Shown one piece after another: positions 51,066-56,071 of a DNA stretch of 64,000 nucleotides. The DNA is from an uncultured Gammaproteobacteria bacterium (GTDB lineage: Bacteria; Pseudomonadota; Gammaproteobacteria; Eutrophobiales; Eutrophobiaceae), in the NCBI GenBank assembly GCA_943788815.1, contig CALSRS010000001.1, forward strand, positions 558,001 to 622,000, written 5' to 3'. The position numbers were made by a program, and so were the translations under genes. The notes below the pieces were generated by a model, which worked only from the letters and a program-made list of their open reading frames with translations, did not search any database and was not told the origin of the DNA. Each line of letters opens with the position of its first letter. The first letter of the stretch is position 1.

Positions 51066-51203
51066 AGTTGCGCCTCAACAACTTAAATAACAAAACCACT
51101 CTTATATCGCATCATTAATAAAGTTGCTAGATAACAACTAATATTACGAAATTACTTTTCCATCACGTCATTAAAAATAGTTGCGTGACAACAACCAAAA
51201 TAA
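51066..51203. repeat. Degenerate 56-57-bp tandem repeats with palindromic sites
   Basis: Units begin at 51066, 51122 and 51179. Each starts with AGTTGC-N5-AACAAC (third position variable beyond), a near-palindrome whose GTTG and CAAC arms stand 8 bp apart. Units 1 and 2 align without gaps over 56 bp with 17 mismatches by my hand count; unit 3 keeps the palindrome and the next few bases, then diverges into T-rich sequence. The array lies 100-240 bp ahead of the HExxH gene and follows purL. The equal spacing suggests repeated binding sites for one regulator, or a small repetitive element. Confidence 0.75.
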
Positions 51204-51301
51204 TATTTTTTGTTTCATTTTTATTTTGATTTTTTTCTCTTATACTCTAAGTGAAATGATTTTTTTAATTTCAGTTATGAAAAAATGATAATAAATTAGA
51301 A

Positions 51302-52189
51302 ATGGACACAATTAACTTTCATGAAAATATAAAAAACCATTTAGGTGGTTTATTAAATAATTTTCGAGAAAGTTATATTCCACACAGTGATACTTCTCAA
51401 ACTATGGTGCACCCGTGCATCATTCAAGGTCGCCCTACACTTGTCTTTGAACGTGGTCTTCAACTTGATGAAGCCGATGTATTTAAATTATTAGTTGAAT
51501 TTGCCAACCATAATGGCTTTGAGATTAAGGAAGACAGAAGGGAAGAGTTTATCGAGGGTATAAAACGGGCAAAAGACAAACAAACTGCTAACGCGATATC
51601 AATTATTGTCATTGCGGCCAGCCTGGTCACACAAAGAGTAATTGCTGATTCAAAATATGAGAATAATTGCCTCAACAAATCTGAAGATATGAGTATTACT
51701 ATAAAATATGAACGCCATGATGAATTGTCGTATTTGTTATCTGATATTCGAAAAGTAAAAACAGAAGACGAATTGTTGAATGTGCTACTAGTTTGGATTA
51801 ATTGCAATTCATCATTTGATTACCATCTTAATGAAATGCCTGGAATAAAAAAAGTTAATACGACTCAGATGAAAGACCTTGCATCTGGAAATGTGCTACC
51901 AGCTTCAATTACCCCAAGGACTTCGCATATCAAGGGGCTGTATAATTTTCATAGTAAAACAATATATCTGCTAGATTCTTTTAATATCAGCAATGAAGAA
52001 GATCGTGCAATTTTATTACATGAAGTTGTACATTTTCTTCAATTTCAATACGGTGATGATAATTTCTTTGATTGCAAACAAAAGCTAGAAAGTTTTGCAT
52101 ATAGATTACAGGCTAAATATCTATATAATAAGAATCAAAAGATAGATATCACAGGGCAACACATACGCCAAGCCAGCCGCTGTTATTAA
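51302..52189 (+). CDS. Unfamiliar protein with an HExxH (DUF6647-like) C-terminal domain
   Basis: 295 residues, no signal peptide. The C-terminal ~130 residues include HEVVHFLQF (H240, E241, H244) and a downstream Glu in LESFAYRLQ (E263), the pattern of gluzincin metallopeptidases and of DUF6647-type proteins. The first ~120 residues are charged and helical, with a hydrophobic stretch at 99-113 (ISIIVIAASLVTQRV); I do not recognise this part. The gene is monocistronic, follows the palindromic repeat array and is AT-rich even for this window. A secreted-type peptidase is unlikely without a signal; an intracellular or membrane-tethered role is possible. Confidence 0.65.
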   Translation: MDTINFHENIKNHLGGLLNNFRESYIPHSDTSQTMVHPCIIQGRPTLVFERGLQLDEADVFKLLVEFANHNGFEIKEDRREEFIEGIKRAKDKQTANAISIIVIAASLVTQRVIADSKYENNCLNKSEDMSITIKYERHDELSYLLSDIRKVKTEDELLNVLLVWINCNSSFDYHLNEMPGIKKVNTTQMKDLASGNVLPASITPRTSHIKGLYNFHSKTIYLLDSFNISNEEDRAILLHEVVHFLQFQYGDDNFFDCKQKLESFAYRLQAKYLYNKNQKIDITGQHIRQASRCY

Positions 52190-53471: not shown

Positions 53472-54428
53472 ATGTTAATACGACAGGCTGAAAACATAAA
53501 ATCATCAGAAATTACTTCAAAAGAAGATTACCTGTCGCGACGGAAATTTTTAACCTCTTCGAGCAGCACCATACTTTCACTCTATATACTGCACGCCAGC
53601 CTACTAAAAAGCGGTAATGTTTACGCTGCTGAAAAAATTGAAAATGTAATAAAAAATATTGATTTTTCATCCGACGAAGAGCTGACGAAGTACTCATCAA
53701 TCATTAGCTATAACAATTTTGCTGAATTTGGACTGGACAAGGAAGACCCCGCTGCTAATTCTGGCGACTTTAAAACCAAACCCTGGACCATCAAAGTCGA
53801 AGGTGAATGTAATAAACCAGGGGAATATCACCTGGAAGACCTTATCAGTCCACATCAACTCGAAGAACGTATCTATCGACTCCGATGTGTTGAGGCCTGG
53901 TCAATGGTAATTCCATGGATAGGCATACCCTTAGGCGAAGTATTAAAGCAATTTGAACCTAATTCTAATGCCCGGTTTGTAGCCTTTACTGCACCCTATC
54001 AACCTGATGTCATGCCCGGTATCGGCAAAGTTGCCTATGAATTCCCTTTTGTGGAAGGTCTTAGAATCGATGAGGCTATGCATCCTCTGTCTCTTCTTGC
54101 TGTCGGCCTGTATGGAGAAGAATTATTGAATCAAAATGGTGCACCCATCAGACTCGTTGTCCCCTGGAAATATGGTTTTAAAAGCATTAAATCCATTGTA
54201 AATATTCGATTTGTTCAAGAACAACCTCCTAGTACGTTTAACAAATTTGCCGCTAACGAATTCGGGTTTTATGCCAATGTAAATCCAGAAGTCAAGCATC
54301 CCAGATGGAGTCAGGCACGAGAGAGAAGAATTGGACATTTTCTTAAGCAGGAAACCTTGATGTTTAATGGCTATGCAGATCAAGTAGCCTCACTATATTC
54401 TGGAATGGATCTAGGAAAATTCTATTAA
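53472..54428 (+). CDS. msrP: MsrP-like molybdopterin methionine-sulfoxide reductase, copy 1
   Basis: Periplasmic enzyme that repairs oxidised methionines. 318 residues, Tat signal SRRKFLTSS (from 22), the Mo-ligating Cys139 in [36 protein letters not shown] as the conserved early block and [19 protein letters not shown] as the later one. A second copy and msrQ follow. Copy 1 has a less typical signal-peptide hydrophobic core ([11 protein letters not shown]). Confidence 0.92.
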
Positions 54429-54507
54429 GCTAATAGCTTTTTTTAATGTAACTGTTAATAATTAATCATTGAATCTAACTATAAGCATTAACGATAAGGT
54501 GACAAGC

Positions 54508-55461
54508 ATGTTAATTACAAAACCGTCTGATATAAAACCATCCGAAATAACCAGTAAATCAGTTTATCTATCACGCCGGAATTTTTTAAAAACCTCCATA
54601 AACACAGGTATTGCAGGATCTGTCGCCAGTTCGGGTATTTTAATGTCCGGCAACGCTCAGGCGGCAAAACTGGATAATATTCAAAAAAGCCCTTATTCGA
54701 CGATAGGAGAAGATCTTACCGATTATGATTCAATCACTACCTATAATAACTTTTATGAATTTGGTACCAATAAAGAAGACCCGGCAAAATATTCCGGACA
54801 ATTTAATCCTAAACCCTGGTCTATTCAGGTAGACGGAGAATGTAACAAGCCTGGCGAAATTGGCCTGGAAGATCTGATTAAACCTCATACTTTAGAAGAA
54901 AGGATATATCGTTTACGTTGTGTTGAGGCCTGGTCCATGGTGATCCCCTGGGTAGGCATACCCCTGGGAGATATATTAAAGCGCTTTGAACCGACCGCAA
55001 ACGCAAAATATGTTGCCTTTAGTACTATATTCAGACCCGATGAAATGCCAGGACAACGTTCACGAGTATTGCGTTGGCCCTATTTAGAAGGACTACGAAT
55101 CGATGAAGCCATGCACCCATTGAGTATCCTCTCAGTCGGGCTATACGGGGAAGAACTTCTAAATCAAAGCGGAGCGCCTATAAGACTCGTCGTACCCTGG
55201 AAATATGGATATAAAAGTATCAAATCAATTGTGAAAATCAGCTTCGTAGAAAAACAACCTCGCACGGCCTGGAATGATTCAGCCCCCAATGAATATGGTT
55301 TTTATTCCAATGTAAATCCCAACAGAAACCATCCTCGCTGGAGCCAAAAGAAGGAACGCCGGATAGGAGAGTTTTTAAAACGCGAAACTCTGATGTTCAA
55401 TGGTTATGCGAACCAGGTTGCCTCACTTTACGAAGGAATGAATTTGCTTAAAAATCACTAA
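54508..55461 (+). CDS. msrP: MsrP-like methionine-sulfoxide reductase, copy 2
   Basis: 317 residues starting at the ATG at 54508, preceded by AAGGTGAC; a TTG at 54469 would only prefix 13 residues. Tat motif SRRNFLKTS, Cys138 in [14 protein letters not shown], conserved [21 protein letters not shown]. Very similar to copy 1 along its length; differences cluster in the signal peptide and in the segment after the cofactor Cys ([21 protein letters not shown] here, [21 protein letters not shown] in copy 1). 10 bp before msrQ. Confidence 0.93.
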
Positions 55462-55471
55462 TGTTAAAGAG

Positions 55472-56071
55472 ATGCAGAAACTATACAAGCCGCTCCTATT
55501 CAGCGCTGCCTTATTACCATTAGCAGTACTGATCTATAATGGTATTAATGACAAGCTGACTGCCAATCCCATTGAATACATTACACACTACACAGGTGAC
55601 TGGACTATTTATTTTTTACTCATCACCCTCTCCATCACACCATTAAGAAATTTATCAGGCAAGATTTTTATAGTTCGCTTCAGAAGGATGCTGGGGCTAT
55701 TTGCTTTTTTTTACGGTTGCCTGCATTTCTTAACCTATTTCGTCCTTGACCAATTTTTTGATTTTGATGCAATCATCGAAGATATCGTCGACAGACCATA
55801 CGTTACCGTGGGATTTACTGCATTTGTATTACTGATACCACTTGCAATTACCTCAACGAAAAAAATGATTGCTCGACTTGGTAGTAACTGGCGTCGATTG
55901 CATTCACTCATTTATGTCATAACTGCGCTGGGGATATTACACTATTATTGGTTAGTAAAGGCTGATATTACCGTACCCTTAACACTCGCTCTGATATTCA
56001 CATTTCTACTGGTGATGCGTCTTCCCATGGCAAAAAATGTGAAAAACACCCTATTTTCAACAAGCAATTAA
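55472..56071 (+). CDS. msrQ: MsrQ-like heme membrane subunit
   Basis: 199 residues, six membrane segments; donates electrons to MsrP. Heme-ligand histidines are in GCLHFLTYF and LHSLIYVITALGILHYYW, the ferric-reductase-type pattern. Starts 10 bp after the second msrP-like gene, so the pair MsrP(2)-MsrQ is coupled; one MsrQ probably serves both catalytic subunits. Confidence 0.93.
   Translation: MQKLYKPLLFSAALLPLAVLIYNGINDKLTANPIEYITHYTGDWTIYFLLITLSITPLRNLSGKIFIVRFRRMLGLFAFFYGCLHFLTYFVLDQFFDFDAIIEDIVDRPYVTVGFTAFVLLIPLAITSTKKMIARLGSNWRRLHSLIYVITALGILHYYWLVKADITVPLTLALIFTFLLVMRLPMAKNVKNTLFSTSN

Follow-up and report, generated by a model that had tools for sequence, protein, structure and literature searches.

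Promoters served by a dimeric regulator of the CRP or LuxR type through several operators are the closest described counterparts of the locus reported here, which likewise carries short inverted arms with a fixed spacer, in several copies upstream of one promoter and with copies elsewhere. We know of no operator whose arms match GTTGY/RCAAC. A literature text search on the motif gave, among the matches listed, only the string AGTTGCGCAA, with no such operator by title, and open-library text searches found nothing on the regulon.

Our candidate regulator, referred to here as the HTH-receiver protein, shares a clear receiver domain with the response regulators that have a DNA-binding output (PF00072 plus HTH), but its order is reversed, with the HTH-like part at the N terminus and the receiver at the C terminus. 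Unlike in two-component systems, no histidine kinase was recognised near its gene when all ORFs of 120 aa or more in the surrounding 19-kb stretch (L205) were read through. A literature text search on this architecture turned up nothing relevant, judging by titles and abstracts; a regulon of this kind is ordinary, whereas the domain order of its candidate regulator is not.

The gene downstream of the array belongs to the DUF6647 family, which PMC11467057 places in peptidase clan MA. Its product scores above the gathering score of the family and keeps HExxH in the alignments, but ahead of the peptidase domain it has in addition a DUF3579-like N-terminal part, then a hydrophobic segment.

On the strength of sequence comparison, we hold with moderate confidence that the three sites of the array are predicted operators for one dimeric regulator recognising GTTGY-N6-RCAAC, with the HTH-receiver protein as the candidate, upstream of a DUF6647 peptidase gene. 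As part of the same joint reading, and with the same confidence, the array would be the largest found of a small regulon common to two species of the genus. What was an unexplained repeat would so become a small, testable regulon for which the operator is defined, target genes are listed and a single candidate regulator is named. Most of the named relatives of this lineage considered here are metagenome-assembled genomes.

The array and the gene downstream

The array lies in a 325-bp gap of the window (the whole 64,000-nucleotide stretch analysed), between the end of purL (50976) and the HExxH gene (51302-52189). The features referred to below are as follows.

51066..51083, + strand: operator-like site 1, AGTTGCGCCTCAACAACT; exact pattern match, noncoding
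51122..51139, + strand: operator-like site 2, AGTTGCTAGATAACAACT; exact match
51179..51196, + strand: operator-like site 3, AGTTGCGTGACAACAACC; promoter-proximal, exact match to the 17-bp core
51066..51178, + strand: two diverged 56/57-bp tandem units, each a site plus spacer, as judged by spacer similarity against shuffles
51241..51246, + strand: possible -10 hexamer TATACT, 44 bp past site 3
51302..52189, + strand: target gene, candidate membrane peptidase of 295 aa, with a DUF3579-like N-terminal part, a hydrophobic segment and a DUF6647 domain

The earlier note had described three regularly spaced copies of a core, AGTTGC-N5-AACAAC, with a period of 56-57 bp, and both points hold: the core is exact at 51066-51082, 51122-51138 and 51179-51195, in steps of 56 and 57 bp. 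By chance, 0.01 matches to this pattern are expected per window, and three matches occurred in none of 100 dinucleotide shuffles. Its description of the core as a palindrome stands only in part, as the pattern matches exactly but AGTTGC/AACAAC is not itself palindromic, the dyad being off by one base; the true dyad is AGTTG(C)-N6-(A)CAAC(T/C), an 18-bp element better written GTTGY-N6-RCAAC. The two well-aligned units with a partial third were also recovered, unit 3 retaining, by eye, the site alone. The spacer stretches of the first two units share 26/38 ungapped identities, counted from the alignment, a similarity equalled by one of 2000 mononucleotide shuffles, and since these spacers are alike the array probably arose from an old tandem duplication. 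Neither Tandem Repeats Finder nor a second repeat search of the window reported it. As 55-57 bp is about 5.3 helical turns, dimers bound at neighbouring sites would not share one face of the DNA.

The HExxH motif ascribed to the downstream gene is present as HEVVH at residues 240-244, and HE[VIL]VH is kept in all seven aligned peptidase sequences, the window protein included. In the Pfam profile search, the DUF6647 (PF20352) match reached 33.5 bits against a gathering score of 24.1, and the DUF3579 match of the N-terminal part 22.6 bits, below the cut-off of 25. A hydrophobic stretch at about residues 97-115 separates the two parts and could thus serve as a membrane anchor, which suggests that the peptidase is anchored in the membrane with its N-terminal part in the cytoplasm. 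The AlphaFold model of the protein is of middling confidence (mean pLDDT 65.7), and its structural comparison with the PDB gave no match with E up to 0.001. Further along the window, at 53472-56071, two tandem genes for what we take to be msrP-like molybdopterin proteins are followed by a gene for a presumably msrQ-like membrane protein.

Like sites in two species of the genus

Five genomes of the genus were compared (G000-G004), of which G000 is the genome of the window. A close homologue of the peptidase (49%) occupies the same position after purL in G002, and G003 has a weak, shorter match. Absence of the unit in all relatives, which the earlier note named as a refutation, does not apply, as the gap before the orthologous G002 gene keeps a pair of sites at a distance of 55 bp, TGTTGCGCAACGACAACT and AGTTGCGCGACAACAAAT. 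By neutral alignment, TGTTGCGCAACGACAACT is the counterpart of site 2 (arms 11/12) and AGTTGCGCGACAACAAAT that of site 3 (arms 10/12), and site 1 is not conserved, with arms identical at 4/12 positions; the spacer of TGTTGCGCAACGACAACT agrees with that of site 2 at 1/6 positions.

Among 20 more distant peptidase loci (L030-L049), for which up to 700 bp upstream was scanned with a matrix of five sites, none had a comparable site, the best being a weak one of 15.6 bits (L049) against 24-29 bits for the five sites themselves. Some of the distant peptidase genes stand behind what by eye is a SYLF-like gene, which may place their promoters further upstream. By eye, a SYLF-domain-like gene precedes the distant homologues at L011, L012 and L013, where the N-terminal part is matched a second time by a longer frame next door. 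When the 261-bp upstream region was used as a DNA query, it returned short chance-like matches besides itself, and the G002 region was not recovered.

The unit is not common in the genome: the 3.23-Mb G000 has four exact copies of the core, three of them in the array. Like sites precede four gene sets in both G000 and G002, that of the peptidase included. The fourth exact core in G000 stands just before the start codon of an exported-protein gene, with AGTTGCGCAATAACAACT in G000 and the nearly identical GGTTGCGCAATAACAACT in G002; only G002 has this gene intact, followed by an nnrU gene, the G000 copy being truncated. The divergent promoter between the HTH-receiver gene and a gene for a 226-aa membrane protein carries AGTTGCGAAGATGCAACC in G000 and AGTTGCGTTACAGCAACC in G002. 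A CBS-domain gene is preceded by AGTTGCAATATGGCAACG in G000 and AGTTGCTAAATGGCAACG in G002, with a second site further up, by 92 bp in G000 and, much weaker, by 94 bp in G002. Cases from one genome each are the sites before a lipoprotein-like gene (G000) and before a hydrolase-like gene (G002). No site was found within 350 bp of the CBS-domain relatives (28-34% identity) in five genomes, or before the exported-protein gene that is present in G003.

The arms of the sites are conserved preferentially. When the four orthologous gaps of G000 and G002 were aligned freely with MAFFT, with seven sites set in G000 alone and site 1 included, 69/84 arm positions were identical, compared with 21/42 in the spacers and 506/1024 in the remaining gap (Fisher P of 2e-9 for arms versus rest and 2e-4 for arms versus spacers). 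Pairs picked by pattern, with site 1 left out, gave 65/72 for arms, 19/36 for spacers and 288/443 for flanks; picking by pattern in both genomes without site 1 favours the arms, and the neutral alignment was used instead.

Genome-wide, palindrome matches with up to one mismatch were scored as noncoding or coding. Noncoding matches made up 12/26 in G000 and 8/20 examined (of 21) in G002, together 20/46, five of these 20 coming from the array. In the genomes without the HTH of the regulator, the figures were 3/17 in G004 and 0/11 examined (of 19) in G001, together 3/28; the seven palindrome matches of G003 stand outside this tally. One noncoding match in G004 (L279), a genome without the regulator, fits GTTGY-N6-RCAAC with an exact core. 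The palindrome is rarer than the control pattern in all five genus genomes (26 versus 45 in G000), so there is no genome-wide excess, which points to a handful of sites and not to a large regulon. Two copies in G000 that match ATTTGCTATTTAGCAACT adjoin an IS-like gene, by eye; they are probably unrelated to the regulon and were retained in the palindrome counts.

With the longer pattern AGTTGCGN4RACAACT, G000 and G002 together gave 43 matches. At up to one mismatch, 8/10 are noncoding, five of these lying in the two peptidase gaps and one, at the G002 exported-protein gene, overlapping an upstream-extended reading frame only; at two mismatches, four are noncoding among 23 examined of 33. For GTTGCGN4RACAAC, the six matches in G000 and G002 all fall in noncoding DNA or at the start of a gene, a single match, which is coding (G001), exists in the three genus genomes that lack the HTH, and in the family outside G000 and G002 four are noncoding among 24 loci examined of 25.

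The candidate regulator and competing readings

The recurrence of like sites at three further gene sets in both species, together with the conservation of the arms above spacers and remaining gap, favours operators of a small regulon over a dispersed repeat, and of the two readings offered in the earlier note it is that of three operators for one regulator which these comparisons support. The divergent promoter of the HTH-receiver gene (G000:C3:390744) contains a conserved site, 131-132 bp upstream of that gene. The C-terminal receiver of the 214-aa product matches Response_reg (PF00072) at 2.2e-19, and the acidic residues, the likely phospho-acceptor Asp (FCDYRMP) and the Lys can be seen in the sequence. 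The N-terminal HTH-like part is a weak match to HTH_3 at 2.4e-4, below the cut-off; in G002, this part matches a phage terminase small-subunit family (24.3 bits, cut-off 22), with the G000 protein just below. The reading frame of the G002 orthologue, on contig C53, is split in two.

Among the five genus genomes, the HTH was found in G000 and G002 and in none of the other three, G003 included; the 226-aa membrane protein and the CBS-domain gene are likewise confined to these two. Based on gene position and on this two-in-five pattern, which other genes also show, the assignment of the regulator is circumstantial but mostly consistent. Across the 48 other family genomes, G066 alone has a full-length homologue (40%), with no such site upstream; HTH-only relatives, 39-45% identical over residues 11-82, occur in G022, G059, G060 and G064, and the loci examined in G022 and G060 showed no good site. 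In a search of 274 genomes drawn from the class, the HTH was found in G000 alone, and viral contigs gave 18 relatives matching the C-terminal part only. A kinase for the HTH-receiver protein is possibly encoded at a distance; orphan response regulators are known. Upstream of the G066 homologue (L208:1150-1500), a different inverted repeat, ATTCGCACCCATGCGA, appears twice, once overlapping the start, and is possibly the own operator of that homologue.

It is a real, if doubtful, possibility that the sites are operators of the same regulon but serve another regulator encoded elsewhere, such as a dimer of the CRP, TetR or LacI type, with the HTH-receiver gene as just one more target. Arms of 5 bp around a 6-bp spacer resemble the sites of many dimeric regulators, the tie of the HTH-receiver protein to this DNA is not direct, and regulators often control the genes of other regulators. 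Against this, no regulator other than the HTH-receiver turned up next to a conserved site, and within the genus its HTH tracks the orthologous sites, occurring in the two genomes that have them and in no other. If the assignment to the HTH-receiver protein is true, a response regulator whose domain order is unusual would gain a DNA target, and there would be a first lead on the cues to which membrane peptidases of the DUF6647/DUF3579-like kind react.

A small repeat element or a decayed tandem duplication, locally amplified and with no regulatory role, appears improbable. The similar spacers of units 1 and 2, the probable origin of the array by tandem duplication and the lack of conservation of site 1 in G002 would suit such an origin; however, the arms are conserved between species above spacers and the rest of the gaps, and the small repeat element that the earlier note had also considered fares poorly as a dispersed element, as G000 has one other exact copy and the remaining sites stand single or paired in defined promoters.

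Still less probable are RNA hairpins in a transcribed leader. The region folds somewhat better than its shuffles (z -1.9, with 8/200 shuffles as good), and the exported-protein site would sit at the 5' end of the transcript; on the other hand, there is no Rfam match up to E 1, and sites 1-3 probably lie upstream of the promoter. Moreover, position 6 is C in all 15 collected sites and its partner is A in eight, T in two and G in five, so no pair would form there in 10/15. An integron attC-like or CRISPR-like array, which the spacing of about 56 bp and the short inverted arms might recall, appears highly improbable on the make-up of the units, as there are no gene cassettes between them, CRISPR repeats are longer than these 18 bp, and the DNA from one site to the next is itself repeated and not unique.

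Promoter geometry and a possible mechanism

A TATAAT-like hexamer, among the six best, lies 39-46 bp downstream in seven of the eight promoter-proximal sites. The distance is 44 bp for the window gene, for the G002 peptidase gene (TATGCT) and, in reverse orientation, for the lipoprotein-like gene of G000; at the G002 regulator promoter, the best hexamers are at 34 and 51 bp. An exact 44-bp rule between site and -10 was considered and rejected, as it is seen in three promoters and fails generally. A sigma-70 consensus scan did not find TATACT at 51241 and gave no good -35. In AT-rich DNA such as this, equally good hexamers occur elsewhere, so the hexamers are weak evidence, and the -10 assignment at 51241..51246 is itself weak. 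With that -10, the centre of site 3 would fall near -65, where activators often bind. At the exported-protein gene, the site follows TATAAT at seven bases in both genomes, a position that would suit a repressor.

Under our preferred reading, with the HTH-receiver protein as the regulator, phosphorylation of the receiver would set DNA binding, and the conserved site upstream of its gene means that control of its own gene through the divergent promoter would follow. Binding at the site centred about 65 bp before the transcription start may activate the peptidase gene, with the other two sites of the array adding occupancy; at the exported-protein gene, where the site overlaps the presumed start, the same protein might repress. 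Somewhat tentatively, we picture a lineage-specific response regulator of reversed domain order, with no neighbouring kinase, that would bind GTTGY-N6-RCAAC, control its own gene and a few envelope and exported proteins, and turn on a membrane-anchored DUF6647 peptidase through a tandemly duplicated array of three operators, spaced by about 5.3 turns.

Two of the putative regulon genes look broken in G000, namely the truncated exported-protein gene (G000:C1:872698-873015) and the lipoprotein-like gene, which has an in-frame stop (L143:9608-10552). Beside the exported-protein gene, at L141:9180-14531, there are folE and genes for a short-chain reductase (folM-like by eye), a CIA30 protein and a pyrimidine-dimer glycosylase, a set that resembles a light or UV response cluster.
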